From Lactobacillus sp. ESL0700 (GTDB lineage: Bacteria; Bacillota; Bacilli; Lactobacillales; Lactobacillaceae), in contig NZ_CP113930.1 of assembly GCF_029392095.1 (NCBI RefSeq), positions 1,809,001 to 1,873,000 on the forward strand: a stretch of DNA of 64,000 nucleotides. The letters run 5' to 3'. A program made the translations under genes and the position numbers. The notes beneath the pieces are model-generated. The model saw only the letters and a program-made list of their open reading frames with translations, had not been told where the DNA came from and searched no databases. This document shows, piece by piece, positions 42,060-61,227 of this stretch. The first letter of the stretch is position 1. Every line of letters starts with the position of its first letter.

Positions 42060-42071
42060 ATTATTACAATC

Positions 42072-42105
42072 AAAAACCTCCTCAGTTAAATCTGAAGAGG
42101 TTTTT
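42072..42105. terminator. Bidirectional terminator gatD-like/pox
   Basis: AAAAACCTC-CTCAG and CTGA-AGAGGTTTTT arms between convergent genes. Confidence 0.8.
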
Positions 42106-42122
42106 ATGTTCACCTGATATTT

Positions 42123-43883: not shown

Positions 43884-43918
43884 TATAAAAACTCCATTCT
43901 TCAAAGTTATTCTTAAAG

Positions 43919-43974
43919 CTTACTTTTTGTAAGTGCATTTCACATAATACCACTTACTTTTTGTAAGTCAATAA
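43919..43974 (-). promoter_or_regulatory. pox promoter with two palindromic operators
   Basis: CTTACTTTTTGTAAG occurs at 43919-43933 and again, extended to ACTTACTTTTTGTAAGT, at 43952-43968. On the minus strand TTGACT and TATTAT (16-bp spacer) frame the upstream palindrome, and the other lies just past the start. The arrangement fits a dimeric repressor; HxlR/DUF24-type regulators bind palindromes of this style, but that assignment is a guess. Confidence 0.65.
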
Positions 43975-44010
43975 AAAACAATAATTTTGACAGAGTTTTT
44001 AAAGCATACT

Positions 44011-44042
44011 AAAAAAGCGACCCTCAAAGGATCGCCTTTTTT
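44011..44042. terminator. Terminator after accessory cas6e
   Basis: AAAAGGCGATCC/GGGTCGCTTTTTT hairpin on the minus strand, ten bases past the cas6e-2 stop. Confidence 0.8.
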
Positions 44043-44051
44043 ATTCAAATA

Positions 44052-44675
44052 TTATTCAGCTAAAGGAATAGCTGTCATGAGGCCCATGCCAAAGGTCTTC
44101 TCTAGACCTATGCCACTAGTTAAAGCCTGCTTAAACAAGTTAGCATCCTTAACTCGCAGCTTACCCATAAACGTTACTCTGCTGAGACGCACTCTCCGGC
44201 CATCTCGATGCAGTACAACTGGCCACTCACGACTAGTAATTTTAAATTCAGAACGTTTTAACTGGAAGCCAGCTTTTTCTGCTTGCTCAATAAGCCATTG
44301 CGCCTGATCTTTCACAGTAATCAATGGTGTTACCTTCCCTTCAGCCGACTTAAACGACGGATTAGCAGTTAGCTGAAAGTTCATCAGTTGACCAGGTTCA
44401 ATATTATCTAAAAACTTGTCATAGTTTTTAGTAACTACAGTACCAACAACGCCAAAACGTGAAAGCAGAATACTATCTGGCTTATTTTGACTAACGATTA
44501 ACAAATAATTTTTGTTCACCAAACGGTCAAGCCGCCATAGGTGGAGCATTTGCTCTTTTGAATCAATCTCATCAGGAAAGCTTTGCTCTACCCAATTGTG
44601 AAACGCAGAAAGTTGTGTTAATTTCTTAGCATTGCGCCAATTATTAACATCAATTTCAACTCTTGATAGATACAT
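44052..44675 (-). CDS. cas6e: Cas6e endoribonuclease, accessory copy
   Basis: 207 residues, the type I-E crRNA-processing nuclease, paralogous to 51384-52022 (identical first ten residues MYLSRVEIDV and near-identical SAFHNWVEQSFPDEI). The candidate catalytic His26 and the C-terminal glycine-rich loop FGMGLMT are kept, so it looks functional. ATG 44673-44675 has GGGAGCG upstream. It lies 47 bp after accessory cas7 with its own terminator. No cas5, cse1 or cse2 copy accompanies it. Confidence 0.93.
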   Translation of the reverse strand: MYLSRVEIDVNNWRNAKKLTQLSAFHNWVEQSFPDEIDSKEQMLHLWRLDRLVNKNYLLIVSQNKPDSILLSRFGVVGTVVTKNYDKFLDNIEPGQLMNFQLTANPSFKSAEGKVTPLITVKDQAQWLIEQAEKAGFQLKRSEFKITSREWPVVLHRDGRRVRLSRVTFMGKLRVKDANLFKQALTSGIGLEKTFGMGLMTAIPLAE

Positions 44676-44722
44676 TTTCGCTCCCTTCAATAACTTTAAT
44701 GCCTGCTTAAAAAGCAGCCAAT

Positions 44723-45823
44723 TTAGTCATTAACATCTTCGCTTTGCATTGCTTTAGTCAATGCATCAGTAACTTGCTTCAGTAAATCTGATAAGTTACC
44801 AGCTTGATTGTTAATTCTTGAAGGATGGTTTGTGAGTATTACGTTCATCAACGGTTCTTCTACAAATCTCTTAGTTGCCATGTATTCGTCTTCTAGTCTT
44901 GTAATTGACTTAGAAATGCATTCCTTTTTGGAGATAATTGGTTCTTCAAAAGCAGAAGCCAAATTAATTGGTGTGCCCTCTCTTAAAGTAATCATGATGT
45001 AATTTGGCAAAGTCTTATTAGCAAATGTCATACGTGTACTTGCAGGCATTGAAAGAATAAAGGCCTTAACAAATTCTGCAACACTCTTAACAATATCGCC
45101 ACCATTAAGGTTGTTTGCCAAAGTATTAACACTTACATTAGCATAACGATACAAAATTGCTGAATCATATTCAACTGCACCAAGCATGTCAACATCAGTT
45201 GCTTTATCTGGGTGTGAATCATCAAATGCTGTAAAGTAATCGTACTCTGATTTAATCTCATGCGTTGAAATTGCATGTGCTACTTGAGCTGCTGCACTAA
45301 CATTCAATCTTGGATTATCTGCAACAATACGACCAAATAAAGCCAAGTCTAAAGAATTATTAGTTTGCAAAATCCGTGTAACATCATTTTTAGCATTTCG
45401 ATCAGTAAAATTATCATGAGTTAAGGCATACTGTGCCAATTTTTCAATTTGATCAGGACTAATCATCAAATAAGTATCTGTCAAAACTCTACCAGTACTT
45501 TGGTCCCGCTTAAATTTAAGTCCAGCTGCACCCAAAGTAGCAATTGACTTGTCGATTGCTGAATTAGCGTCTAAAGATCCATCTAAGGCAGTTAGCTTGT
45601 AAGCCAATAACTCGGCAACTTCTTTAGTCTTTGTTGCAACTGCAGCATTTTCAGCTTTAAAGAAATCATGTACAGCCTTTTGCCAGTTTTGTGCAGAAAC
45701 TCGTGCACGTGTTACCCCACCATAAAACGCGGTCTTTGCTGCACCCGTAGAATCTTGATTAATATTAGAAGAAGGTACTTTCTGTAATATATTCAGATCA
45801 AGATATAAATTCGTATTACTCAT
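44723..45823 (-). CDS. cas7e: Cas7/Cse4 Cascade backbone protein, accessory copy
   Basis: 366 residues, exactly the length of the main cas7 at 52717 and alignable throughout (NLYLDLN start, PSSNIN, YGGVTRARVS, LDLALFGR, AQVAHAISTHE, FANKTLPNYIM, EDVND end), but clearly diverged. In Cascade six Cas7 copies coat the guide. The intact frame, AAGGAG ribosome site and own promoter suggest it is expressed. It heads a two-gene unit with cas6e-2. Confidence 0.94.
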   Translation of the reverse strand: MSNTNLYLDLNILQKVPSSNINQDSTGAAKTAFYGGVTRARVSAQNWQKAVHDFFKAENAAVATKTKEVAELLAYKLTALDGSLDANSAIDKSIATLGAAGLKFKRDQSTGRVLTDTYLMISPDQIEKLAQYALTHDNFTDRNAKNDVTRILQTNNSLDLALFGRIVADNPRLNVSAAAQVAHAISTHEIKSEYDYFTAFDDSHPDKATDVDMLGAVEYDSAILYRYANVSVNTLANNLNGGDIVKSVAEFVKAFILSMPASTRMTFANKTLPNYIMITLREGTPINLASAFEEPIISKKECISKSITRLEDEYMATKRFVEEPLMNVILTNHPSRINNQAGNLSDLLKQVTDALTKAMQSEDVND

Positions 45824-45879
45824 TCCAATTACTCCTTTTCAGTATTGTTGACCATGTATTTTAAACATTGTCCAGCCTT

Positions 45880-45907
45880 CATATAATTGCATGCTGGATA
45901 CTTACAA
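45880..45907 (-). promoter_or_regulatory. Promoter of accessory cas7-cas6e
   Basis: TTGTAA (45902-45907), 16 bp, TATATG (45880-45885) on the minus strand, 57 bp before the cas7-2 ATG. Confidence 0.5.
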
Positions 45908-46421
45908 ACTGCTAAGATTTACCTAATTTACTGATATGCTAGCTTTCAACGCACCTAAACATAACCTAATACTTTAACAAAAGTATTGTGGTTAGGTTAA
46001 AAGTACTTTTTAAATAATTGAGGAATTGAATATAAGCCCCAATTCATTCGTTAACACACTCTTTATAAATACATATTATGTAATAAAAGCGATTTTTTTG
46101 CAAGCTATTTTACAAAAGCTAAATATAGTATAAAAATAATATTTTATTTAACAAGTTAGCCAAAAATAAGCTGCTATTTACAAAATGTAAGGGCTATTCA
46201 TAATTCATGACTAATTATGTAATATTAATAATAATTTGATATATAGATAATATTTTTGTTATGTATGCTAAACATTATAGTCTTCTGGTTATTTCTGCTC
46301 TACTCATCAAGCATGTTATGTACCATTATTCATAAATTAATCCTGATAGCCATTATTAATGTAGGAAATTTAATAAAATTGCATAAACAAAAAGCACTGA
46401 TACTATATCAGTGCCCGTGAT
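45908..46421. other. AT-rich intergenic region with hairpins
   Basis: No gene is supported. An imperfect hairpin with AACCTA...ATACTTT/AAAGTAT TAGGTT arms lies at about 45970-46005, upstream of the accessory cas promoter. A terminator (GCACTGATA/TATCAGTGC, 46392-46415) serves the small minus-strand ORF beginning at 46538. Confidence 0.4.
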
Positions 46422-46538
46422 TTAATATCTTTCACGCATTTTCTTATCTCGGTAGTAGTCTATTATGCAAATTATGTAAAAAATATATAGGGAAAGTAGA
46501 CCGCTAAATGTTAAAATTCCCGAAAATAGTTTTTTCAT
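46422..46538 (-). CDS. 38-aa single-pass membrane peptide (tentative)
   Basis: MKKLFSGILTFSGLLSLYIF begins the product, which has one hydrophobic helix and a charged tail (DKKMRERY). The stop is followed after about 7 bp by a strong terminator hairpin with a T run. The ribosome site is weak. A small membrane peptide is plausible; no family recognised. Confidence 0.35.
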   Translation of the reverse strand: MKKLFSGILTFSGLLSLYIFYIICIIDYYRDKKMRERY

Positions 46539-46900
46539 TAAGAAAATTCTAGCCACATCACTGCTAGCTTTACATTAAGACTAAAATTACCAGTTAAAGA
46601 AGTTTGTGAAATTTTCATGTTTCACGCCTAAGAGCCTTGATTTAGCAAGGCTCTTATACTTATGCTTTTCATAATTTCACAATTAGATCAATTGAAAAAA
46701 GCCTAGGATAATCTAGACTTTCAACAGCTGAACTATTTACGTAGTTTGTTAATGATTTCTTTGACATCATCTAACACATCTTAAGCTTTTGCAAACACAA
46801 GATACAGTATGAGTAAAAATTAGTATTTTGTACGAGATACTTAATGTGCATGAAAGCAACTGAACTTGCACTGTCAACCATTATCAAGATATAATTGATA
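46539..46900. other. Non-coding stretch
   Basis: It holds a perfect 10-bp hairpin AAGAGCCTTG/CAAGGCTCTT at about 46630-46655, without a clear T run, and a weaker hairpin near 46700. No supported gene. Confidence 0.4.
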
Positions 46901-47002
46901 GTGAAACATAAGGTAAAGTTTTAAAGGGCAGTGGCTGTTTAATTCCAAGGAGATGATTATCTATGGGAACATGGAGCAAATTATTGAAAGGATTAGCAGT
47001 TA

Positions 47003-47098
47003 ATGAGCGTCCACGATGCAATTTCTTTAATGTTGCAGTTTGGTTTAGTGCTGTTGGCACTGTTGACTTATATCGACAGCAACCATCACAACAAATAA
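47003..47098 (+). CDS. Holin-like type I toxin, 31 aa
   Basis: MSVHDAISLMLQFGLVLLAL begins this small hydrophobic toxin (TxpA/'putative holin-like toxin' type found in Firmicutes), ending LTYIDSNHHNK. One membrane helix spans about residues 7-23. AAAGGA lies ten bases before the ATG. A leader ORF from 46963 with AAGGAG upstream overlaps it in another frame. The mRNA ends at the GAAGTTCTA/TAGGACTTC terminator near 47240. Its 5' AAAGGGCAGTGGCTG can pair with CGGCCACCGCTCTTT near the 3' end, a long-range fold typical of translation-inert type I toxin mRNAs. Confidence 0.8.
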   Translation: MSVHDAISLMLQFGLVLLALLTYIDSNHHNK

Positions 47099-47104
47099 GC
47101 GCAA

Positions 47105-47253
47105 CAAAAAAAGACCGTCCCACATATAAACTTTGGCAAGTTATGGGATAGCCTTTAGCTAAACTATAATTTTCGGCCACCGCTCTTTGAAGGCGGAAGC
47201 TTGTGTTTAAGAAGTTCTATTAGTAGTAGGACTTCTTTTTATTTACAATTGTA
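47105..47253 (-). ncRNA. Antisense antitoxin RNA (copy 2)
   Basis: Minus strand promoter TTGCAT (47276-47281), 17-bp spacer, TACAAT (47253-47258). The transcript overlaps the toxin mRNA 3' region and ends after a hairpin with a run of seven T at about 47104-47110. Promoter and position are conserved in the decayed copy at 41045-41214. Confidence 0.7.
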
Positions 47254-47455
47254 TTGTAGCATGTTTAAAATTGGTATGCAATTTTGACGGAAATTTCAAA
47301 CGTTCTTAAACGTTGACTGAAAATAAAATTTGTTTAGCTTATGAAACATAAAAATTTCACAAACTTTTTTGGCAATTTTGGCTTTGATATAAAGCCGAAT
47401 TTTACTACTTCGGATAAAATGTTGATTATGTAAAGTTAGCAGTGGTATAGCTAAA

Positions 47456-47857
47456 TTATTCGATTCGTTCTAATTTTTCTTCTAGTGCTTCCGTTAGTAA
47501 TTGCGAAAAATTGATTTTTGCTTCTTTGCCTTTTTCAGCCAATCGTAATGGTATCCTAGTATTTTTATTAACCATTCTATCTTTTATGCACTTCTTAGCC
47601 TGTAACATATCGGCAACAATATAACTAACAATTTTATCTGGATTTTTTCGTTGTATATCAGATAGAGAACTAGCTTTATATTCTTTACCTGATACTAACA
47701 AAAATCCTTCTAGACATTCTTCAGCTCGTTTGATTGAAGCTGGTATACCAACTCCTTCAGTAATTGCACCTGGAATATCTGGAAAGGTTACCGTGTAGTT
47801 ACCCGCTTCATTTTTTGAGTCATCAAAAACAGCTGGATATGCATAATATTTTTTCAT
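47456..47857 (-). CDS. hicB: HicB-family antitoxin, orphan
   Basis: 133 residues. The N-terminal HicB fold (YYAYPAVFDDS...GNYTVTFPDIPGAITEG) resembles a degraded RNase H domain; a C-terminal ribbon-helix-helix-like part follows (RIPLRLAEKGKEAKINFSQLLTEALEEKL). HicB normally neutralises the HicA mRNA interferase encoded next to it, but no hicA-like ORF lies on either side. Strong SD AAGGGAG. It could be a relic or a stand-alone repressor/anti-toxin. Confidence 0.85.
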   Translation of the reverse strand: MKKYYAYPAVFDDSKNEAGNYTVTFPDIPGAITEGVGIPASIKRAEECLEGFLLVSGKEYKASSLSDIQRKNPDKIVSYIVADMLQAKKCIKDRMVNKNTRIPLRLAEKGKEAKINFSQLLTEALEEKLERIE

Positions 47858-48069
47858 TTATTTATCTCCCTTAACTTATATATTTATTATACGCCCAAGC
47901 AATCATAAGCAAATATTTATTTTAAAATAAATAAAAAGTAGGTACTTTTAGTAACTACCTTTTTTGCAAAATTTTAAGTTTAAGTTATTGTTGTTAAAAA
48001 TCTTTGTCAGAAAAAAATTTTAGCATTAAAATCTTTATCTAAATGCTTTCTTGGCGTCTTTTCTTTTGA

Positions 48070-48507
48070 CTAAGATTGAGCCTGGTTAGTTGCTGAACTT
48101 TCAGTTGCTTCTTGATCGATCTGATTACTAAGAGCTAACCTTACAAATTTTGATTTTGAAATTGTTGGATTTGCTTTAAATAATTCAATAGCTTTATTAT
48201 CAATAATCTTTTCAGTATTTACAAGTTTGGTAATGTTATCTTGCTTATTCTTTGAAAAGCGGTAAGACCATTGCTTTTTAGCGTTTTCTGCGCGTAATTC
48301 ACGCTCAAGCTGGAACTCACTCACATGGCCATTAATCCTGCCGGCAATCATTTCATACAAGTCATCAATACCAGTGATTGGTACTGCTCAATTCAAGGTT
48401 AAGCACCGTATCAATCAAAATAGTACCGCCGCCAATATCAACTATAACAACTTTTTCATCTTGCATATCTTCATTGGTCAAGTAGCCTTCATTGTCCAGT
48501 AGCTCAG
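48070..48507 (-). pseudogene. ParM-like plasmid partition ATPase remnant
   Basis: The frame ending at 48365 carries a ParM/StbA actin-type phosphate motif (KVVIVDIGGGTILIDTV). After a frameshift near 48362 the same protein continues (LYEMIAGRINGHVSEFQLERE to NPTISKSKFVRLALSNQI). The start is missing: the upstream end runs directly into the degenerate CRISPR repeat at 48508. It is a broken plasmid segregation gene, evidence that plasmid DNA once lay here. Confidence 0.65.
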
Positions 48508-49511
48508 GATCGCCCTCACGCTTGTGGGGAATACGTTTTAACCAACTTTGACTTAGAAATATACGGAGGATCACCCCCACGCATGTGGGGGAATACTAAA
48601 TGGTGTTGCATCAGATGATAATAAAAACAGGATCACCCCCACCTATGTGGGGAATACTGATAGTCTGCATCGCTATATTGAATGCCACCAGGATCACCCC
48701 CACCTATGTGGGGAATACTTAGAAAAAGCTGAGTTTCAAGAAGCAACGATGGGATCACCCCCACGCATGTGGGGAATACTATTTTTATCAAAGACTCCGA
48801 GCGAAACAAAAAGGATCACCCCCACGCATGTGGGGAATACTTTGTGATGGTGTGATAACTAATACCAAATTTAGGATCACCCCCACGCATGTGGGGAATA
48901 CTATTTTCCTCCAAACAAAAAACCAAGCTTGCGAGGATCACCCCCACGCATGTGGGGAATACGGTTTATGAAGCTATTCAAGAAGCATTTAGAGAGGATC
49001 ACCCCCACGCATGTGGGGAATACTAAATAATCATGACTGATGAACAACTAACCAAGGGAGCACCCCCACGCATGTGGGGAATACTAGCTGATGTAGCTAA
49101 TCACATGGGTGCAATCCGGATCACCCCCACGCATGTGGGGAATACAACCTGATGCGGACCAAATTCAAGAAAATCTAAGGATCACCCCCACGCATGTGGG
49201 GAATACTTTTTAGCTTGATTACTTGAATTAGTTAGATTAGGATCACCCCCACGCATGTGGGGAATACCTTTAGCTTTCTTCACAGCTTGACGGGCAATCG
49301 GGATCACCCCCACGCATGTGGGGAATACGTGGAGTTCACTCTGGAAAATGGTGACCGGCAGGGATCACCCCCACGCATGTGGGGAATACATATTTTGCCA
49401 GAGAAATACCGGATCCAACTAAGGATCACCCCCACGCATGTGGGGAATACTCGGATGTTCTGGAATATCCGGCACGTCATCTAGGATCACCCCCACGCAT
49501 GTGGGGAATAC
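48508..49511 (-). CRISPR. Type I-E CRISPR array 1 (17 repeats, 16 spacers)
   Basis: 28-bp repeats every 61 bp. In crRNA orientation (minus strand) the repeat is GTATT, stem CCCCAC, loop ATGC, stem GTGGGG, tail GTGATCC. Repeat starts: 48508, 48568, 48630, 48691, 48752, 48813, 48874, 48935, 48996, 49057, 49118, 49179, 49240, 49301, 49362, 49423, 49484. The four low-coordinate repeats are degenerate (loop changes, an extra G at 48568), marking the trailer. The leader is at the high end, against cas2. Spacers are 33 bp and all look different. Confidence 0.98.
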
Positions 49512-49576
49512 AGTAAAAGATCCCTATGATACCAACATTCCTAAAATTTAATCCTACCGTTTTTTATTAGTTTGTT
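49512..49576 (-). promoter_or_regulatory. Array 1 leader, overlapping the cas2 3' end
   Basis: GTAAAAGATCCC abuts the last repeat and TTTTTTATTAGTTTGT lies 48 bp further. Both elements recur at the same spacing beside array 2 (61228-61292). The second element is inside the cas2 coding sequence. Confidence 0.65.
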
Positions 49577-50436
49577 TGCTAATTCCATTGTAGCCTGAGC
49601 ATCAGATAATGCATTATGTGGCTGCAAATTTTCAATATTATAAAACTTTAATACTGTCGCCAACTGGTAGTTATCGAGAAACTTTTCGGTTTTCTTAACT
49701 ATCGCCATTAAATCAATTGTTTTATTATCTAATTCTGCTAAGTTACAAGTAACTAGACCACTAGACAAAAACGTTTCATCAAAATGAAAATTATAACCCA
49801 TTAAAATAGAAGACTTGATAAAATCTTTTAGCTGAACAAGAGCTAAACTAAGTGGTATCCCATTATCTGCCAGCATCTTTTCAGTTATACCCGTAAGCTC
49901 AGTTATTGGTTTAGGTATTTTTTGATCGATTTTAATTAATTGATCAAATTTTTGATAACTACCATCTTTTAGCTTTTTAATAGCACCTATTGCAATAATT
50001 TGATCACGACCAGCTTTTAATCCTGTTGTTTCAAGATCCAACACAGTAATTTCCGGCTGTGAAATTTTAGTGTGAACCTTTTTCTGATTATGTGCCATCA
50101 CTTTTGCACGATGAAATTTAGCTGCATTACTAAAACCATACTTTGTAGCTTGCGGCATATTATCAACATTCAGCCGCATCACTAGCGGAATACCATCATA
50201 ATCAACAACATCATAATTTCGTCGTGTCGTTTTAATCTCGTAACCCAACTCAGTATTGGTACTATAAACCATGGTCGCTTCACCACTACCAATATTTTTC
50301 TCTACTCGTTGCCACAATAAATCACGTATCCTTGCACTAACATTGCCCACATAGACACCTGTTTGTACTTCTTGATACCACTTAGTAAGGTCGCCTCGCA
50401 ATGACTGTGGCACTTTAGTTAAAGTAACTACAATCA

Positions 50437-50437
<1 letters not shown>
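49541..50437 (-). CDS. cas2: Cas2 fused to a DEDDh exonuclease domain
   Basis: 298 residues. Residues 1-95 are the I-E type Cas2 (MIVVTLTKVPQSLRGDL, VYSTNTELGYEI). After a linker, residues from about 128 form a DnaQ-like 3'-5' exonuclease with DLETTGL (Exo I), NFHFDETFL (Exo II) and HNALSDAQA (Exo III), all acidic residues present. Such fusions are known in some I-E systems, where the nuclease trims prespacers. It overlaps cas1 by one base. Confidence 0.95.
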
Positions 50438-52022
<1,585 letters not shown>

Positions 52023-52034
52023 TTGCGCTCCTTT

Positions 52035-52736
52035 TTATAAAGCTGACAAAGCATCATGCTCAGTATCTGATTTAAAAACAGGATTGGTAAGTTCAACTAC
52101 TGTGGTTTTAACCTCGCGAAAGCCATACTGACGTGCTTTTGAATCAAATGATATAGCTTCATCTTTTACTTCCATACTCGATTTATTAACATCCGGCAAT
52201 AAATCCGCATCCGCAATGATTTCCGCTCTAAATGTGGCACTGCGCCTTTGCCGTTTTTGATACCAATCAGAGGCTCTCCACGGCAATTGTTTTAACACAG
52301 AAACTGGATCGCCATCTTTAATATCCATTTGTAAAACGCCAGCAGGAACATTTGCACGTCTGCCTAAAAATAAGGCATAATGCGGGTGCTTTAATGCAAA
52401 ATGGATTTTTTCAATGGTAGTCTCGTCACCACCAACAGCTACAACAAAAACAGCATCTTGCAAGTAGTCACGATAGGTGATCTTTCGTGTATCTTTTTTC
52501 CATTCAACCGTCTGAAAATCGGTTAAAGTTATCCCATGTTGGTCAATTCGAACAGCAAATTGTAAATCATTTAACTGCTTAATCCGTTGATCATCACGAC
52601 CATATCCCAATGCTGCGGCAATTATCCCTATTATTGCACTTTTTGCTGGATAATCGCCTGTTGTCCGCCGTTCAAATGATGCTTCATTGCCATAAGACTG
52701 CAAAGGCGCAGTCAACCTAATCGTTAGTGTCTTCAT
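52035..52736 (-). CDS. cas5e: Cas5e Cascade subunit
   Basis: 233 residues. The RAMP fold opens TIRLTAPLQSYGNEASFERRTTGDYPAKSAIIGIIAAALG; it binds the crRNA 5' handle and bridges Cse1 and Cas7. It starts 20 bp inside the cas7 end. This is the only cas5 in the window, so both Cas7/Cas6e sets would have to share it. Confidence 0.95.
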   Translation of the reverse strand: MKTLTIRLTAPLQSYGNEASFERRTTGDYPAKSAIIGIIAAALGYGRDDQRIKQLNDLQFAVRIDQHGITLTDFQTVEWKKDTRKITYRDYLQDAVFVVAVGGDETTIEKIHFALKHPHYALFLGRRANVPAGVLQMDIKDGDPVSVLKQLPWRASDWYQKRQRRSATFRAEIIADADLLPDVNKSSMEVKDEAISFDSKARQYGFREVKTTVVELTNPVFKSDTEHDALSAL

Positions 52737-53817
52737 CTTGCATAACCTTTGTCAAAGCTGCAGATATCTGATCTAGTAATTCAGAAAGTTTTGTGACTTT
52801 TTCAAGTTGCCCACTACCATCTCGCGAAAGCACAACATTAAGAAGAGGCTCTTCAAGCATGCTATTAGTAGATTGATATTCATCTTCTAACTTCTGAATA
52901 GAATTTTTAACAAAACCACCTTTGGTCACAACTGGTTCTTCAAATGCTGAAACCAAATTAACTGGAGTATCTGGACGCAGTGTAACCATAATATAATTTG
53001 GCAAAGTCTTATTTGCAAACGTGTTTTGTTTACCTGTTGGCATTGACAAAGTAAAGGCTTTAATAAAGGCAATTATACTTTGAATAGCATCTTGATTGCC
53101 TAAATTTTTAGCCAAATCTTTAACATTAATATTTGCATAGCGGTATAAAGTTGCAGAATCATATTCAATCGTTCCCAGCATTGCTGCACCATTAGCATCA
53201 TCTGATTGCAAATCATCGAGTGCTGTGAAGTAGTCATATTCTGGAATAATTTCATGTGTCGAAATTGCATGGGCAACTTGAGCCGACGCATCAACATTTA
53301 ATTCTGGATTATCAGCAACCATCCGGCCAAACAAAGCTAAGTCTAAGGAATTATCCTCCTTCAAGATTTGCTTAATTTCCTTCTTAATATCTTTATCATC
53401 AAATTTATCATGGTTAAGTGCATACTGGGCTAATTTATCAACTTGTCCAGGACTAACTAATAAAAGCGCGCCTGTTAAAGTCTTGCCTGACTTCTTATCC
53501 TTTTTAACCTTAATTCCTGCAGCAGTCAAAATTGCTGTTGCCTTTTCCATAGCAGCTTCTTCGTCCAAAGAATTATCCAAAGATTGCACTTTTTTTGCCA
53601 AAAATTCGGCAACTTCTTTAGTCCTTGTTCCAACCGAGGCACTTTCGTCTCTAAAGTAATCACGCATCGCTTTTTTCCAGCTTTGTGAAGAAACACGCGC
53701 CCGTGTAACACCACCATACAATGCCGTTTTAGGTGCACCAGTATCATCACGGTTAATGTTTGACGATGGCACTGTTTGTAATACATTAAGATCTAAATAT
53801 AAGTTTTTGTTAGTCAT
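52717..53817 (-). CDS. cas7e: Cas7/Cse4 Cascade backbone protein (main operon)
   Basis: 366 residues, RRM-type RAMP forming the six-fold filament on the guide (NLYLDLNVLQTVPSSNINRD, YGGVTRARVSSQSW, FANKTLPNYIMVTL). Overlaps cse2 by 8 bp, with AAAGGAG. A same-length diverged copy is at 44723-45823. Confidence 0.96.
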   Translation of the reverse strand: MTNKNLYLDLNVLQTVPSSNINRDDTGAPKTALYGGVTRARVSSQSWKKAMRDYFRDESASVGTRTKEVAEFLAKKVQSLDNSLDEEAAMEKATAILTAAGIKVKKDKKSGKTLTGALLLVSPGQVDKLAQYALNHDKFDDKDIKKEIKQILKEDNSLDLALFGRMVADNPELNVDASAQVAHAISTHEIIPEYDYFTALDDLQSDDANGAAMLGTIEYDSATLYRYANINVKDLAKNLGNQDAIQSIIAFIKAFTLSMPTGKQNTFANKTLPNYIMVTLRPDTPVNLVSAFEEPVVTKGGFVKNSIQKLEDEYQSTNSMLEEPLLNVVLSRDGSGQLEKVTKLSELLDQISAALTKVMQDEDTND

Positions 53818-54436
53818 TTTCTTCTCCTTTAATACTATCTGAGTTAGTTACTCTAAAATATTGTTGACCCCACGATAAGCGAACATTACCCGCACGATGA
53901 TAATTTGTCTGAAAATCATATAAATCTTGTGCTAGTAGTGGATAGTCAATTTTTACTGCCTGATTAGTAGCTTTTTGGATTTCTACTAGATGCGTTAGCG
54001 AATTGATAACACTAGCAATATTATTTGTTGCTAGTAATGGTTGAATACGCCGATCTAGTGCTACTCTCACATCTTCATTTGCTCTTAACTTAGAAAGAGC
54101 AGTGAACAAGCTTACCCCATCAGCTTCTGCATTATCTTTAGCTTTTTTCTTTGTTGAATCGCCACAAACTAATTCATCTTTACCTTGCTGCTGAATTGCA
54201 TAAAGGCGTATTGCAGCAAATACAGCAATTTCACCAATTGTCGGCTCACCATTTTTACTTAAAAATTGTTCTGGTAAATACTTCATTAATAATGGCCAAA
54301 CGTTTTGTGCACGCTGACTAGTAATTGTCGCGGCACTTCTTAAGCTTGCTAAAGCGGCTTTATCCAAATTGCCATTATCATAAAGTCGGTCAATGATTTT
54401 AGCCGTTATTTTTCTGATTGCATAATCATATTCCAT
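53810..54436 (-). CDS. cse2: Cse2/Cas11 small subunit
   Basis: About 208 residues, the helical small subunit that stabilises the R-loop in Cascade. Recognised by the position between cse1 and cas7 and by the pattern of basic helices (SAATITSQRAQNVWPLLMKY, AIRLYAIQQQ, LTHLVEIQK). ATG at 54436 or TTG at 54439 both follow AAGGAG, within the last cse1 codons. Confidence 0.93.
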   Translation of the reverse strand: MEYDYAIRKITAKIIDRLYDNGNLDKAALASLRSAATITSQRAQNVWPLLMKYLPEQFLSKNGEPTIGEIAVFAAIRLYAIQQQGKDELVCGDSTKKKAKDNAEADGVSLFTALSKLRANEDVRVALDRRIQPLLATNNIASVINSLTHLVEIQKATNQAVKIDYPLLAQDLYDFQTNYHRAGNVRLSWGQQYFRVTNSDSIKGEEND

Positions 54437-54443
54437 CAAGTCA

Positions 54444-56153
54444 TCACTCCTTCTTCAATTCAGAATTAACACGATATTTAAAATAGTTATTAATCGTGAA
54501 AATATTTCTAAGGCCTTTATCGGTAAGAACCCCTTTTACATCACGTGATGAACTAGTATCCATTACCTTTTTAGCTTCTGCAAAAGCATGCTGTTTAAGC
54601 TGCTTTTCCCAAAGTAATACCTTTTCACCACGTTCATCATGATTAGTTAAGCCTGCGAGCCAATCTTTAAACGGTTGATTTAATCCATAATAAAACTTGG
54701 CGCTTAAGCGATTAGCAAACTCCTTAAGCGAATTGTCTTTAAATCCGCGAATTTCGCCAACATCACGTGCAAATTGCCAAAAGTATGACCCAACTGTCTG
54801 CGTCTTTTCAATCACTGCTTCAATTTGCGCTGGCCAATAATCTGCATCATTTTCATCAAAAAGAACATCGGCATTAATAGTCATATCATCAGTAACTTCA
54901 GCAACCGGAGATTGTGATGTCGCATTATCATCATCAATCAAGTCCACGGACGCCAATGTCAATAATTTATTGTGCGGAATTGCCTGTTTTTCTTTAAGTA
55001 ATCGCAGCCAAACAACAATTCCTGGCTCCCTGTTATCATGAACCTTATTGGCATTAACGTAATTACCGAAACTGCGCCACATTGCTTTGCCTAATGACTG
55101 CAATCTTCTAACTGCTGGCCTATAAGTCGCTGTCTTTTTATCATATTTCCAGACTGTCATCGGTTCAATCATTGCATTATCACTGACAATTTTGGGCAAT
55201 CCTGCACTAAAGATAGTTGGCTCCCCAGTATTATTCCATTCAATATGCAAAATCCGTGACCAACTTGTATACAGCTCTGCAATATTATTCGGTAAAAGAT
55301 TTTTTTGGCGTTCACTCACGTACTCTTTTGCGCTTACATATTCCCAGACTGGTCTTTGCCGTGCTGGCTCTTGACTAAATAAAACTAGGTTTAACATCAA
55401 AGTTTCAAAAAGAGTTTTACCCTGAGCAAAAACAGGATTTAATTTATACAGCCAACCAGGTGAAACTGAGAATTTTTCATCTGCTTTAATCTTAGTTTTA
55501 TCAGTTACCCCAGTAAAGCTTTGGTAAGTAATTATCCATCTAGCCAATTCATCGACTGCAATTTGGTTTTTACCTTCACCAGCTTTCGGTGCAAAGAGCG
55601 CTGGAGTATTGTTACTTTCAGAAATGCGTCTATTAATTTGCTTAACTGATACTGTTCCTGTACCCTTGGCAACAGCCTTATTATCTGGAACTAGCTCATC
55701 ATATTCAGCTTTTGTTACCTGATAAAAAGGATGGTCACCAAAGAAAGCAAATTTATCAGCGTAATGCTCTAAATATTTAGTAACAATCTCTGTAAAATGT
55801 CCTTTTTGGTATAAACTTTGCCAAGTTGCTAATAAGTCATCATCAATTTCGTCTTCATCATAATCATCAGAAATTACCGCACCAGCTTTAAACGAATCCT
55901 TTTCATCTTCTAACCATTCATAAGATTGACCAGCTGCATCAAAACGAGAATAGACTGTCGTTAAGATTGCTAATAAAAGTCGCATAATCGCTAAATCTTG
56001 TGCTCGCATGTCACCAGCTAATTGCCGATAATTTTGCGCATTTTTAAATAATTCAATTAAAGAAACTCGTTGCTCTTGACCGGTTTGCCTATCGATTACT
56101 TTAAGCCAAGAATCCGTAGTTAAATTAAAATCTTTTTCAATCATCATCATCAT
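54444..56153 (-). CDS. cse1: Cse1/Cas8e large subunit
   Basis: About 569 residues, PAM-reading large subunit of I-E Cascade. Typical opening (FNLTTDSWLKVIDRQTGQEQRVSL), the central GEGKNQIAVDELARWIITYQSF region, and a C-terminal four-helix bundle. Its start is a run of four ATG codons overlapping the five GAT codons ending cas3, so the exact initiator is uncertain within 9 bp. Confidence 0.95.
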   Translation of the reverse strand: MMMMIEKDFNLTTDSWLKVIDRQTGQEQRVSLIELFKNAQNYRQLAGDMRAQDLAIMRLLLAILTTVYSRFDAAGQSYEWLEDEKDSFKAGAVISDDYDEDEIDDDLLATWQSLYQKGHFTEIVTKYLEHYADKFAFFGDHPFYQVTKAEYDELVPDNKAVAKGTGTVSVKQINRRISESNNTPALFAPKAGEGKNQIAVDELARWIITYQSFTGVTDKTKIKADEKFSVSPGWLYKLNPVFAQGKTLFETLMLNLVLFSQEPARQRPVWEYVSAKEYVSERQKNLLPNNIAELYTSWSRILHIEWNNTGEPTIFSAGLPKIVSDNAMIEPMTVWKYDKKTATYRPAVRRLQSLGKAMWRSFGNYVNANKVHDNREPGIVVWLRLLKEKQAIPHNKLLTLASVDLIDDDNATSQSPVAEVTDDMTINADVLFDENDADYWPAQIEAVIEKTQTVGSYFWQFARDVGEIRGFKDNSLKEFANRLSAKFYYGLNQPFKDWLAGLTNHDERGEKVLLWEKQLKQHAFAEAKKVMDTSSSRDVKGVLTDKGLRNIFTINNYFKYRVNSELKKE

Positions 56154-58905
56154 CCTTTGTATAACTCAAACCAAATTGTTCCGAATACTGCAATTTCCAC
56201 TTACCAAGAGTAGTTGTTAAATTCTCATCTAAAGGAAGAGCTAAGGCTCCCTTGAGCCAAACGCTATTTTGCCAGTCTGCATAATACTTACTAGTAATCT
56301 TTTCTAAGGATTTAATTACATCATCAATTGCAGTTACATACTGTGTCATTGCTGTTGGTAGTCTGATTACTTGCTCTGAAATATCATAATCTGAAACCTG
56401 AGCCAAATCTTGACCATTAATTAAAAAGTCACCCTTAGCTGTATGCTTAAGCAAAATAACTTCAATTGTTTCTTGAATATCCCGAACAGCCCTACTTGCC
56501 TTTTCTTCATCCTTATCAACACCTGATTGCTCATAATTCAGCCAGCCATGAATTGGTTCCTTAAGTTGCGGATTTTTAATTTGAAATTTTTTAGCTTTTT
56601 CTTTTTCTTCATTAATGTACAAGTCAAATTCTTCTTTTGCCTTTTCAATTCCAGCAACTTTAGAATCAGTTTCAGGATTATAAACTTGCTGGACAAGATT
56701 AGAAATATCATCAGGTAACGTAATAGTATCTGGCAAAAAATGATCCGTCTTCATCAACAAATATTTATGATAAATACTCTCATTAGCTGCACCATAATCG
56801 CCCAAGTCATTAATTCCCATCACATAAAGTTGTGGCTGCTCTAAACTTTTTGGTCTAACAATTTCATGACGATGCAACCGCCCCGCTCGCTGCAAAATCA
56901 AATCAATTGGTGCAATATCTGTATAAAGAACATCAAAGTCAATATCCAAAGATTGCTCTAAAACCTGTGTCCCAATTACAACTAATTTTTCGGGTCGCTT
57001 GTCTTTTTTGTTTTTCTTATCTTTTTTACCAATTGCATTTTGCAATTTGGTTTCCTGTGCTGTTCGTTCTGGTGCTAAAAAAGCAGAGTGTAAAACCATG
57101 AATTCCACATCGGTTTGCGCAACTAATTTAGCCAATGCTTGTGCACGCTTAACTGTATTTACAATAACTCCAGCAATTCCACCAGCCTTTATCTTGTCTA
57201 AAATGGCAGCTACTAATTCATCATCAGGTAAATTAATTCTTTCAACCTGCAACTTTTGTACTTTCTGGTCGCTTTGACCAGGAAATTCTGAAATTTGCTT
57301 TAACTGACAGCCATCCAGAATACTTACTAATGGATATGCTTGGTTATTTTCCCAATCAGCAGGTGCTTTAAATTGTTTACGTTCTTTTCGGTTATATTTA
57401 CCTTTCAAATAGGCTTTAATCAGAGCTTGCCTTTTTTCTATTGGCAATGTTGCTGACAAAATTACAATAGGAACATGGTATGTACCTAGCCATGTGATTG
57501 CTTTATACAAATATTGACTCATGTATGCATCATAAGCATGGACCTCATCAATCACGACTATTTTGCCGCTCAATCCTAAATGCTTTAAAAACAAATGCTT
57601 TTGCTTTAATCCCATTGAAAGTAGATTATCGATCGTACCAATCGTGAACTTAGTCAGGATAGTCTTTTTCCCAGAAAACCAACTATTAACTGTAACAGCC
57701 CCAGTATCTGTATCATCTGCCACATTTTCCGCATCAGGTAGCCTTTTGTATTCGCTATTAAACGCTTTTTTACTGTGCATTAATTCAATTGAAAAATCAC
57801 TTTGTTGCTCAGCAGATAGTTTTTGCAACCAATACTCAACTCGTTTAAACATGGCATTACTAGTTGCTTGTGTTGGCAATCCCATAAACAACCCATCTGC
57901 ACCGGTAATATAAGCTAACTGTTCAGCAGCAACCAGTGCAATCTCTGTTTTACCTAAACCCATTGGTGCTTCGACAATAATCATTCCCGGATCAGTTGTT
58001 TCACCAATTGCTTTAGTTATTGTCTTTTGAACGGGTCTTGCTTTAAACTGCCATCTCTTTTCATATGGGTCAGTTGTTTCAGAAACTTTTTGCGGCTCCC
58101 ATTCATCGCCAAGATACCAATTATGCATCGCTTGCTCAAAACGTTCTTCCATATTTAAATCATGCCAAGTTTGATCTAGTCTAATTAATGGAAAGAGCTC
58201 TTCACCATTATGTGTACGCTCACTTGAAGCTAGCCAATCAGCCATAATTATTAGGCCTTCCAATATCACAGCTTGCGGTTGAGTAATGTCCGGAATATCT
58301 GCAACACTTTGATAACCTGCAATTGCTAAACCATATTCAAATAATTCTTTTTGGACTTGCTGCCAAGGTGTTTTCAGGGTTTCATTTTGATCACTTTGAT
58401 AATAATTTGCTGTATGATTCCTAATTTCATCATAAGGAGTAGTAGACTCAGGCTTACCATGATGGCCGCCAATCAATGCGGCCACATTTTCTGGCACACC
58501 AAATTTTAGTAATAAAGCTTCTCCTGCTCGGTTATGAGGGGATTCTCTTCGCAACGGTAATTCCAAATTATCAAGATCATAGAACCCTTGCCTGATTAGC
58601 TTTTCAATCAAAGCATTATCTAAATCATCATCATGAATATATGCTTTTTTAGTTTGAAAAGCTGGTGTAGCCTTACCGAGGTCATGAATAAAGCCCAAGA
58701 ACTTGACTAATTTATGAATTTCGTCATCAGAAAAATTTCCTTTTAAAAATTGACGCTGATTATTAGACAGCCAATGATTATATAAAAAATTAATTACATT
58801 TTTAGTATCTGTTAAGTGAGCAATCAATGGTAACCATTTTTGTTGACCGTCTTCTGTATTTTTCTTTGCCCACAATGCTAAAGTTTTACTTGATAAAGCT
58901 GGCAT
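56137..58905 (-). CDS. cas3: Cas3 helicase-nuclease
   Basis: 922 residues. HD nuclease domain with FIHDLGK (His74-Asp75) and GGHHGKPE, then an SF2 helicase: Walker A APMGLGKTEIAL (about 310), DEVHAYD box, LSATLP, and QRAGRLHRH. It degrades DNA marked by Cascade. The ATG at 58903-58905 follows AGAAGG by nine bases. The C-terminus is five Asp. It is the first gene of the operon, under the promoter at 58948-58976. Confidence 0.96.
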   Translation of the reverse strand: MPALSSKTLALWAKKNTEDGQQKWLPLIAHLTDTKNVINFLYNHWLSNNQRQFLKGNFSDDEIHKLVKFLGFIHDLGKATPAFQTKKAYIHDDDLDNALIEKLIRQGFYDLDNLELPLRRESPHNRAGEALLLKFGVPENVAALIGGHHGKPESTTPYDEIRNHTANYYQSDQNETLKTPWQQVQKELFEYGLAIAGYQSVADIPDITQPQAVILEGLIIMADWLASSERTHNGEELFPLIRLDQTWHDLNMEERFEQAMHNWYLGDEWEPQKVSETTDPYEKRWQFKARPVQKTITKAIGETTDPGMIIVEAPMGLGKTEIALVAAEQLAYITGADGLFMGLPTQATSNAMFKRVEYWLQKLSAEQQSDFSIELMHSKKAFNSEYKRLPDAENVADDTDTGAVTVNSWFSGKKTILTKFTIGTIDNLLSMGLKQKHLFLKHLGLSGKIVVIDEVHAYDAYMSQYLYKAITWLGTYHVPIVILSATLPIEKRQALIKAYLKGKYNRKERKQFKAPADWENNQAYPLVSILDGCQLKQISEFPGQSDQKVQKLQVERINLPDDELVAAILDKIKAGGIAGVIVNTVKRAQALAKLVAQTDVEFMVLHSAFLAPERTAQETKLQNAIGKKDKKNKKDKRPEKLVVIGTQVLEQSLDIDFDVLYTDIAPIDLILQRAGRLHRHEIVRPKSLEQPQLYVMGINDLGDYGAANESIYHKYLLMKTDHFLPDTITLPDDISNLVQQVYNPETDSKVAGIEKAKEEFDLYINEEKEKAKKFQIKNPQLKEPIHGWLNYEQSGVDKDEEKASRAVRDIQETIEVILLKHTAKGDFLINGQDLAQVSDYDISEQVIRLPTAMTQYVTAIDDVIKSLEKITSKYYADWQNSVWLKGALALPLDENLTTTLGKWKLQYSEQFGLSYTKDDDDD

Positions 58906-58922
58906 TACTTTCAACCTTCTTT

Positions 58923-58946
58923 TATTTTAATAATCATAATCAAATT
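58923..58946 (-). promoter_or_regulatory. Predicted target of the CreR-like guide over the cas3 transcription start
   Basis: Minus strand TTGATTATGATTATTAAAAT matches the guide encoded at 59060-59081 with mismatches only at guide positions 6, 9, 18 and 21 (crRNA numbering after an 8-nt handle). AA lies at the PAM position (58945-58946). The site begins at the +1 region of the cas3 promoter. Confidence 0.6.
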
Positions 58947-58947
58947 A

Positions 58948-58976
58948 AATATATACCGGAATAAAATTTATTGCAA
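58948..58976 (-). promoter_or_regulatory. cas operon promoter
   Basis: TTGCAA (58971-58976), 17-bp spacer, TATATT (58948-58953) on the minus strand; start expected near 58941, 36 bp before the cas3 ATG. Confidence 0.75.
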
Positions 58977-59002
58977 GCGTTTTTAAAAATAATTTTAAAT
59001 AA

Positions 59003-59110
59003 ATAGGTTATAACACCATGCTATAACCTATAAATTAGCCCCACAAATGTGGGGAATACCATATTAATAATTATCATCAATGGATGACCCTCATTATTAT
59101 GAGGAATACA
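59003..59110 (-). ncRNA. CreR-like stand-alone pseudo-crRNA gene upstream of cas3
   Basis: On the minus strand: extended -10 TGGTATAAT (59117-59125), start at the first base of a 28-nt repeat-like unit (59082-59109; stem CCTCAT, loop AATA, stem ATGAGG, tail GTCATCC), 22 nt of guide (59060-59081), a second 28-nt repeat-like unit (59032-59059; perfect stem CCCCAC/GTGGGG but altered tail), then a 10-bp perfect hairpin ATAGGTTATA/TATAACCTAT (59003-59031) with a TTTATTT tail. Cas6e cleavage would give an 8-nt handle, about 21 nt of guide and a normal 3' stem-loop. CreR and CreA RNAs have this architecture; repression of cas3 is inference. Confidence 0.65.
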
Positions 59111-59135
59111 TCTTTAATTATACCATCTTCAAATA

Positions 59136-59361
59136 ATGTTGCTTTCTTACTACCAAATTGACCCAGACAATCTCTCTAAGCAGGATTCATACATCCCTGG
59201 TATTATCCCTGGTGAAGACACGGCAATTTACATTTCTGACTTGCTTTACAATCTGGCATTACCTGGTGCTTTATTCTTAACCATCATTTCAGTTGTGCCA
59301 TTAATGGCTGCTAATACGATTTCGCCAAGCTTGCAGTTAGGTCTTAGTATTAACCGAAAAT
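59136..59361 (+). pseudogene. SecY-family translocon fragment
   Basis: About 75 residues match an internal SecY segment (QIDPDNLSKQDSYIPGI, then LALPGALFLTIISVVPLMAA). Neither end of the gene is present; SecY proteins exceed 400 residues. The frame ends artificially at the junction with the Fic fragment near 59360. It is a rearrangement scar, not a gene. Confidence 0.6.
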
Positions 59362-59688
59362 GGGTACCCGGTAATTAACGTTAATCCTTCCAAAAAAGCT
59401 CGAGATAAATACATGATGGCATTGGCCACAGCAGAAGCGCCAGAAAATGATCCTCAACCATTTAGAGAACTAATCGCTGATTACGTTGAAAAAGAATTAG
59501 GCAGCAGAATTAAAACTCTGCAGTTAAATGAAAAGTATACTCAAGAAGCAGAAGAATCATTTAATCGTAGTGGACTAGACTGGAACAAATTAGAAAAAGA
59601 AAGTAAAGAAAGACTTGCGCAAGCCGAATTAGCAGCACAATATGAAACACAAAAAGTGCTTAAACAAGATGGCCCGAAATTAGAATGA
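59362..59688 (+). pseudogene. C-terminal fragment of a Fic-family protein
   Basis: The frame GYPVINVNPSKKARDKYMMA followed by FRELIADYVEKEL is what follows the Fic active-site loop in Fic/DOC AMP-transferases. The HPFxxGNGR motif itself is missing, so the enzyme is inactive. It is fused head-on to the SecY fragment at about 59360. Fic modules travel with mobile DNA. Confidence 0.5.
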
Positions 59689-59917: not shown

Positions 59918-61227
59918 TTTCAACCCTCACCATTGTGGGGAATACCAGTATTTTGCCCATATTGATAATCCGGAAAATGGATCACTCCCACCTCTGTGGG
60001 GGAATACATACCTTGACCCAAGCGCTGTGGAACAACATTAGGAGCACCCCCACGCTTGTGGGGAATACGAAGGCGGATTCGGCAAGGATAAAAAAGCAAT
60101 GGGATTACCCCCACGCTTGTGGGGAATACTCGCCTTCTTTAACCGTAACCTTGCGGTCGCCAGGATCACCCCCACGTCTGTGGGGAATACTTATAGGCTT
60201 TTTCGTCTGGGTAATGGTTATAAGGGATCACCCTCACGTCTGTGGGGAATACTCTAGTAAGGAGGTGATAAGCGTGCGAAGTATAGGATCACCCTCACGT
60301 CTGTGGGGAATACGCTTGGGTTATTACTACTGTTTGGTAGCAGCAGGGATCACCCTCACGTCTGTGGGGAATACCCCTTCAGCTTTTTTAATCTTAGCTT
60401 CCAAAGGGATCACCCTCACGTCTGTGGGGAATACAGCAGCGGAATTCGAGGAGCATGACGTTGACTAGGATCACCCTCACGTCTGTGGGGAATACCAGCC
60501 GATCCCTACTATGTTTATCCGAAAGACAGGATCACCCTCACGTCTGTGGGGAATACTTGATGTAAATGGGACTGTTAACGCGCCGAAAAGGATCACCCTC
60601 ACGTCTGTGGGGAATACTAAGCAAGCGAAGCTAACAGGTTATCATACCCAGGATCACCCTCACGTCTGTGGGGAATACTTGCTGTCGGTAATCATGCTGT
60701 TAATGCGATTAGGATCACCCTCACGTCTGTGGGGAATACTAAATCTGGCAGTAATCGTGTCGCCACCGGTCAGGATCACCCTCACGTCTGTGGGGAATAC
60801 CAATTTATCGCCCGCAAACAGGCGAAATTGGCGGGATCACCCTCACGTCTGTGGGGAATACTTGGCAGCAAACCAGCGCATCTTTTATACGTTAGGATCA
60901 CCCTCACGTCTGTGGGGAATACTAAGCAATCATATTGGTAGTGTTATAAAAGATAGGATCACCCTCACGTCTGTGGGGAATAAACAACACGGAAGTAACA
61001 GTTGGCGAAAGTAATAGGATCACCCTCACGTCTGTGGGGAATACAAATCATGAACCGTCTTACATACATAACGGTCAGGATCACCCTCACGTCTGTGGGG
61101 AATACTTGTGTGGTTGCTCTTACCTTACTTACTTTTTGGGATCACCCTCACGTCTGTGGGGAATACTTTGTTGCAAGGTAAAATTATCACTCTGTTCGAG
61201 GATCACCCTCACGTCTGTGGGGAATAC
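59918..61227 (-). CRISPR. Type I-E CRISPR array 2 (22 repeats, 21 spacers)
   Basis: 28-bp repeats every 61 bp, read on the minus strand: GTATT, CCCCAC, loop AGAC, GTGAGG, tail GTGATCC. Repeat starts: about 59918 (degenerate), 59979, 60041, 60102, 60163, 60225, 60286, 60347, 60407, 60468, 60529, 60590, 60651, 60712, 60773, 60834, 60895, 60956, 61017, 61078, 61139, 61200. The first five vary: the repeats at 60041, 60102 and 60163 keep the fully paired stem of array 1, while from 60225 on all carry the GTGAGG stem. The repeat at 60956 ends AATAAA. Leader at the high end. Confidence 0.98.

Follow-up and report, generated by a model that had tools for sequence, protein, structure and literature searches.

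A Two-Repeat Unit Upstream of cas3 as a Probable Cascade-Guided Autorepressor of a Lactobacillus Type I-E cas Operon

Upstream of cas3 in Lactobacillus sp. ESL0700 lies an isolated pair of degenerate CRISPR repeats, which raises the question of whether this small unit is the decaying end of an array or encodes an RNA by which the CRISPR-Cas system regulates itself. RNAs of the latter kind, the cas-regulating RNAs (CreR), are reported for types I-B, I-E and V-A in passages of PMC13131331, and are also reviewed in parts of PMC12737573 and PMC12948488. The comparison of related loci described here indicates that the unit is very probably a CreR-type, Cascade-guided autorepressor of the cas operon.

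The unit and its match at the cas3 promoter

The window analyzed, a stretch of 64,000 nucleotides (C1:1809001-1873000), carries on its minus strand a type I-E system made up of cas3, cas8e, cse2, cas7, cas5, cas6, cas1 and a cas2-exonuclease. The cas8e profile score (63.3 bits) is below the curated cut-off of 70.05 bits.

56137..58905, minus strand: cas3, first gene of the putatively targeted operon, with a likely ATG at 58905-58903 (AGAAGG stands upstream of it) and an alternative TTG at 58914
49541..56153, minus strand: open reading frames of the I-E operon (cas8e, cse2, cas7, cas5, cas6, cas1, cas2-exonuclease), which would supply Cascade
48507..49511, minus strand: I-E CRISPR array 1, after cas2, source of the canonical crRNAs that would compete
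59918..61227, minus strand: I-E CRISPR array 2, upstream of cas3

Cas2 (49541-50437, minus strand) carries a fused exonuclease domain of the DEDDh (DnaQ-like) type.

The degenerate repeat pair, with 22 nt between its repeats, is located between cas3 and array 2. When at most three mismatches were allowed, the repeat pattern occurred at 37 places in the whole genome, 36 in arrays 1 and 2 and one being repeat 1 of the mini-array; this threshold misses more degenerate repeats, repeat 2 of the mini-array among them. Between the mini-array and array 2 there is also a SecY/SecY2 fragment of 80 aa (59136-59378, plus strand), probably a pseudogene. The parts of the unit are as follows.

59117..59125, minus strand: extended -10 promoter-like sequence TGGTATAAT of the mini-array transcript, conserved in the related loci L003 and L004 and present as TGTTATAAT in L005
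59082..59109, minus strand: repeat 1, a degenerate I-E repeat with a stem that has diverged yet pairs, and with the handle GTCATCC retained
59060..59081, minus strand: 22-nt segment, made up of the 8th handle base (A) followed by the 21 nt of the guide
59080-59060, minus strand: 21-nt guide TTGATGATAATTATTAATATG
59032..59059, minus strand: repeat 2, with the hairpin retained and the 5' handle lost (CTAATTT)
59039..59088, minus strand: predicted mature CreR-type RNA, about 50 nt long, with an 8-nt handle, then the 21-nt guide and a hairpin at the 3' end, as deduced from Cas6e cleavage
59003..59031, minus strand: terminator-like hairpin of 13 pairs followed by a T-rich tail, with the stem re-paired in L003 and L005

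The 22-nt segment lies between the two repeats exactly where a preliminary description of this DNA had placed it. A canonical I-E array has near-identical 28-nt repeats and spacers of about 33 nt, and the unit departs from this in its 22-nt spacer and in the degeneration of both repeats; a mini-CRISPR with degenerate repeats at the cas locus is what is expected of a CreR. Relative to the array repeat, the stem of repeat 1 has two compensated pairs. The promoter was called because its extended -10 is conserved among relatives; a good -35 was not seen, and a simple promoter scan did not return this site. Cas6e cuts at the 3' base of the repeat hairpin, so that the mature RNA is expected to run from 59088 to 59039, shorter than the 60 nt or so previously proposed. 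A fold of the window RNA with the guide paired to repeat 1 is predicted at −23.4 kcal/mol versus −23.2 kcal/mol for the repeat-1 hairpin, which counts against an autorepressor; the L003 and L005 RNAs retain the repeat-1 hairpin in their best fold.

The predicted guide matches a site at the promoter of cas3.

58948..58976, minus strand: cas3 promoter-like TTGCAA-17-TATATT, conserved in three relatives
58923..58946, minus strand: target, consisting of the PAM AAT (58946-58944) and a 21-nt protospacer (58943-58923), matched at 17/21 positions

Recounting the pairing gave the same 17 of 21 positions as the preliminary description, with mismatches at 6, 9, 18 and 21. The PAM, given there as AA, does begin with these two bases and can be refined to AAT, as the base directly before the protospacer is T; the RNA carries A as 8th handle base opposite this PAM. 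The guide is thus partially complementary to the cognate cas promoter beside an AAT PAM, a second feature expected of a CreR. The target had also been thought to overlap the start of cas3. The start codon is not overlapped: the target begins 10 nt past the first base of the -10 box, spans the position at which transcription is expected to start together with the 5' leader, and ends ahead of the cas3 ribosome site.

This geometry bears on the alternative that the unit encodes a CreA-like antitoxin RNA, with which Cascade represses a hidden toxin gene (CreTA) and not the cas genes. Such a unit would have the same anatomy, since two degenerate repeats, with the handle kept in repeat 1 and lost in repeat 2, are described for CreTA in passages of PMC9458426. 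However, the cas3 ATG follows 38 nt after the target of guide position 1, which leaves little room for a separate gene; no other open reading frame of at least 80 aa is present there, and no toxin separate from cas was found at the target. A very short toxic RNA at the target is possible, and the alternative as a whole is very unlikely.

Since the region is AT-rich, the preliminary description had cautioned that chance matching must be excluded, and for this locus the shuffles go part of the way. Searching 58906-59031 on both strands, with 5000 shuffles of each kind, 17/21 was reached anywhere in 1.3% of cases when the guide was shuffled and in 0.42% when the region was; requiring AAN in addition lowered the latter to 0.12%. 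Taken alone, the window locus is suggestive and not proof, with a chance P of about 0.001-0.013 in AT-rich sequence. The pattern AAYTTGATNATNATTATT, written with mismatches 6 and 9 already known and therefore not a blind test, has one exact match in the 2.04-Mb genome, the target site. Other near matches of the guide in the window (16-17/21 at 37085, 11199 and 5577) were rejected as lacking a PAM that starts with AA.

The window also contains a second cas7-cas6 pair (44052-45823, minus strand), whose products share 60% identity with Cas7 and Cas6 of the main system. In a tblastn search of 42001-48500 no relatives of cas8e, cse2, cas5, cas3, cas1 or cas2 were found, and the pair is possibly the partner or the leftover of a second Cascade. 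The mini-array guide has no match in the region upstream of this pair (best 7/10).

Guide-target pairs upstream of cas3 in relatives

Genomes of the genus, of the family and from outside the family were used because a first scan of relatives gave one distinct locus. Among named relatives, the nearest one identified was Lactobacillus sp. ESL0679, which carries L003 and has a Cas3 that is 92% identical. A Cas3 match was present in 25/75 genus genomes and in 92/397 family genomes, some of the family ones weak and partial. From the Lactobacillaceae, 88 type I-E cas3 upstream regions out of 89 entered were analyzed, four of them short (L036, 133 nt; L056, 365 nt; L037, 380 nt; L022, 382 nt). The set leaves out L001 (the same locus as L003), L068 (no start found), the candidate G425, and L024-L026, L028 and L029 (without a cas3 N-terminus, or weak or partial matches). 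Matches were scored over guide positions 1-5 and 7-11 (maximum 10) at sites with the PAM AAN.

The automatic scan covered both strands. The isolated two-repeat units that it listed numbered 32 and came from 30 loci, while the other spacers numbered 232 and came from 36 loci. Within its own locus, the best score of a unit was 10/10 in 20 cases, 9/10 in 6 and 8 or less in 6; these last (L014, the second unit of L076, L077, L086, the minus-strand reading of L088, and L094) count against an autorepressor. Among the other spacers, scores of 9 or 10 were reached by 6/232 with AAN. Three of these (L005, L065, L085) are two-repeat units that the script classed as arrays because of an extra weak hit, that of L057 is the last spacer of an array, that of L012 is an artefact and that of L055 resembles a chance match. 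With AAY, 5/232 other spacers reached at least 9, four of them explained.

In total, 30/88 loci from 8 genera were positive, with 29 two-repeat units and one last array spacer. They comprise 25 automatic units, L005, L065, L085 and L057, together with L022, which was added by hand because its second repeat fell under the scan threshold. Excluded from the positives were L012 (a repeat matching a repeat, with AAG), the L055 array spacer at −542 (9/10, a score expected from the shuffle rate for about 2/232) and L009, which scores 9/10 yet 9/15 and has a far target, and which counts against an autorepressor. So do the 58/88 examined loci that are without an accepted guide-target pair.

The controls gave such scores rarely. 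In dinucleotide-shuffled versions of the own regions, with AAY required, 9 was reached in 28/3200 and 10 in 0/3200. Unit guides placed on the regions of other loci scored 10/10 in 9/2784 trials (guides of L019-L021, L039, L046 and L084 in every case), and other spacers did so in 3/20184.

A looser scan starting from any handle-like motif gave 31 loci at 12/15 or more. From it, L007, L015, L040, L043, L052 and L070 were rejected, their guides not standing behind a repeat, and L086 and L094 were rejected as weak matches.

Upstream of cas3, L009, L077 and L094 carry isolated two-repeat units without a convincing nearby target. These units could be decayed or aimed at another gene.

The repeats of the units decay in an ordered way. 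Over 26 sequences, the handle GTGATCC is kept at a mean of 6.7/7 bases in repeat 1 and 2.7/7 in repeat 2, and the stem score against the array consensus is lower in repeat 1 than in repeat 2 in 23/26, equal in 1 and higher in 2. A repeat 1 with its handle and a repeat 2 with its hairpin fit the need of a single crRNA-like product. At least 5/6 fixed stem pairs of repeat 1 form in 17/26 sequences, and at pairs 8-19, 10-17 and 11-16 the Watson-Crick type differs among loci; the 9/26 repeat-1 sequences off the fixed register were left out of this stem-pair count.

PAM, R-loop positions and co-variation

The PAM of the 26 automatic units that score at least 9/10 (L009 included) is AAT in 13 and AAC in 13, with AAA and AAG in 0, when only AAN is asked; AAN sites in these regions are 45% AAY and 55% AAR. 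This count was made separately from the position-count script, which required AAY. In the arrays of the window, 34/35 spacers begin with T or C, as expected where the third PAM base enters the spacer and the PAM is AAY. Moreover, in a cell-free test described in passages of PMC11288051, the I-E Cascade of L. salivarius, another species than that of the window, repressed a reporter at AAT sites.

For the position counts, 26 non-redundant pairs were retained out of 30 after dropping the near-duplicates L004, L020, L021 and L046. Positions 1-5, 7, 8 and 11 match in all 26 and positions 9 and 10 in 23, a high match that is partly built in by the selection on positions 1-5 and 7-11. Positions 6 and 12 were unused in the selection, and 13-17 served for tie-breaking only. 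The match is 9/26 at position 6 and 6/26 at position 12, beside 26/26 at the neighboring 5, 7 and 11 and 24/26 at 13. It then falls from 18 to 17, 16 and 10 out of 26 over positions 14-17, the background at AAY sites being 28%. Position 18 shows no dip versus its neighbors (0.46 vs 0.48) because matching has already faded there. The window pair is mismatched at position 9, which is matched in 23/26, and this counts against an autorepressor.

In the type I-E complex of Escherichia coli every sixth base is flipped out and unpaired, as described in parts of PMC5904413. The near-background match at positions 6 and 12 beside matched neighbors is the R-loop footprint of type I-E Cascade, and marks long selection through Cascade as opposed to a recent capture or antisense pairing.

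The nearest relatives show the guide and the target changing together. The window, L003 and L005 differ at positions 3, 11, 14 and 15, and every change is common to guide and target; L003 and L004 are identical in both. Own guide-target pairs match at 17, 18 and 18 of 21 positions in the window, L003 and L005, and swapped pairs at 13-16. Guide and target disagree at positions 9, 18 and 21 in all three loci and at position 6 in the window. These relatives also conserve the cas3 promoter and, in the unit, the extended -10, both repeats and a terminator-like hairpin whose stem is re-paired. Complementarity between guide and target thus appears to be maintained by selection, as would be expected of a CreR.

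These observations bear on the reading of the unit as a decayed remnant of an array end with a chance match. Its position between cas3 and array 2, its degenerate repeats, the AT-rich region and a single-locus chance of 0.1-1.3% would all suit such a remnant. However, matching to the own promoter recurs in 30/88 loci with different guides, the AAY PAM and the footprint at 6 and 12, and is rare in other spacers; a handle in repeat 1 and a hairpin in repeat 2 are not expected to persist in a remnant, and the co-variation speaks against it. This reading has even less to recommend it than a CreTA unit.

More improbable still is a fortuitous self-targeting spacer, taken from the cas promoter and tolerated through its mismatches without regulatory use. 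Units may indeed have begun as captured spacers, and the last array spacer of L057 matches a promoter-like stretch downstream; over the 26 non-redundant pairs, however, the paired positions are matched and 6 and 12 are lost, and the joint changes of guide and target in close relatives indicate maintenance by selection. An antisense or trans-acting RNA on the cas3 mRNA, suggested by the small RNA gene adjoining the mRNA that its RNA resembles, can be practically dismissed, since the guide has the sense of the cas3 strand in 27/30 loci, that of the window among them, and so cannot pair with that mRNA, and the PAM together with the 6/12 footprint indicates action by Cascade on DNA.

The Cascade-guided autorepressor proposed in the preliminary description is therefore supported by comparative sequence. 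Independent drift of guide and promoter in related genomes had been named there as the observation that would speak against it, and the opposite was found, with co-variation, the AAY PAM and the 6-nt footprint over 30/88 loci. The unit, its hairpins, the PAM, the partial match, the co-variation and the footprint can be read in the DNA itself, and together they give strong sequence evidence for a defense system that would turn down its own production.

Proposed mechanism, variant wirings and significance

We infer transcription, processing, loading and repression, and also the sensing of crRNA or anti-CRISPR levels. A short transcript from the extended -10 promoter near 59120 would carry the two degenerate repeats, and Cas6 would cut it to a crRNA-like RNA with a handle, the 21-nt guide and a 3' hairpin. 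Loaded into type I-E Cascade, this RNA would lead the complex to the AAT PAM, which adjoins the -10 box at the cas3 promoter. Pairing of guide and template strand would extend to about position 17 and place Cascade over the transcription start. Initiation of cas3 and the genes behind it would be blocked without the full R-loop that Cas3 needs. Repression would ease once array crRNAs occupy Cascade or the complex is disabled; the sensing of crRNA supply and of anti-CRISPR proteins is taken from passages of the CreR reviews (PMC13131331, PMC12737573, PMC12948488). In E. coli, mismatches at positions 19-32 leave Cascade binding unreduced, and interference and priming need more than 18 bp, according to sections of PMC5904413; given these data, the partial match fits binding without cleavage. 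The same paper also reports that off-target Cascade binding, at short matches, left the expression of genes within 1 kb unchanged, which counts against an autorepressor.

Several relatives are wired differently. The unit of L006 has a divergent orientation. The target is the upstream region of the unit itself in L016, L039, L046, L084 and L085, and the start-codon region in L018 and L027. L080 has two tandem target sites, the better one 9/10 by the main score, ahead of an open reading frame that precedes cas3 (−351 to −75 from cas3) and that has HTH family matches, all under the cut-offs. In L109, L111 and L112 the target is followed by a small gene with a Pfam HTH_3 match above the cut-off; this gene lies at about −305 to −113 from cas3, ahead of unit and cas3. 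The small HTH genes ahead of cas3 are possibly relay regulators or co-regulated genes.

Outside the Lactobacillaceae, a 10/10 match after a repeat was found in 5/10 loci (L106, L107, L109, L111 and L112, all of family f5), in a scan that tried every handle-like motif and so had more chances than the main scan; L104 and L114 gave 9/10 hits only, without a repeat.

In L057, an ordinary 33-nt array supplies the matching guide as its last spacer; counted from cas3, this guide lies at −356 and its target at −281 (10/10, AAC). Its target adjoins TATAAT in a promoter-like stretch just downstream of the array, and this spacer is perhaps an autorepressor built into the array.

It seems somewhat probable that Cascade-guided self-repression is common and ancient among the type I-E systems of Lactobacillales, with several wirings, namely at the cas3 promoter, at the upstream region of the unit itself, before an HTH gene and in a last array spacer. 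Some of these wirings may be new.

The tracr-L of type II-A is a natural RNA that directs Cas9 to its own cas promoter. The unit resembles it as a natural RNA predicted to turn a CRISPR effector on its own cas promoter, and differs from it in that tracr-L is a long tracrRNA working with Cas9; RNA and effector are unrelated in the two cases. With CreR it shares a mini-CRISPR beside the cas genes and a partial match to the cas promoter, along with a crRNA-like RNA and Cascade as repressor, both of which are predicted here. Unlike CreR, it has a 21-nt guide in the window, with spacers of 21-23 nt in 19/30 and of 33-36 nt in 10/30 positive loci, and some relatives target the upstream region of the unit itself or a site before a small HTH gene. 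CreTA, as described in passages of PMC9458426, has the same two degenerate repeats, the same asymmetric decay and Cascade-guided repression of a promoter, the last predicted here; its target is a toxin RNA and not the cas operon promoter, and the haloarchaeal repeats, unlike those found here, do not retain hairpins.

CreR in type I-E is already reported (PMC13131331, in the passages cited), and the Lactobacillus unit adds unusually strong evidence of the comparative kind. Among the matches listed in our literature search there was no such unit in Lactobacillaceae; the primary CreR paper lay outside that search, and we do not call the unit unpublished. That primary paper is reportedly Liu et al. 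2023. The examined genus has loci with the unit and loci in which none was found, so that the coupling of Cas levels to crRNA supply by CreR is directly testable.

The loci provide a collection of guides and promoters that have co-evolved in nature under type I-E Cascade, and both the AAY PAM and the flipping-out of bases 6 and 12 can be read off the sequences alone. If self-repression is indeed such a common design, these natural pairs record the R-loop positions that matter in living cells. Endogenous I-E systems of lactobacilli serve for genome editing, and a built-in autorepressor, if true, would bear on cas expression in these editing systems.
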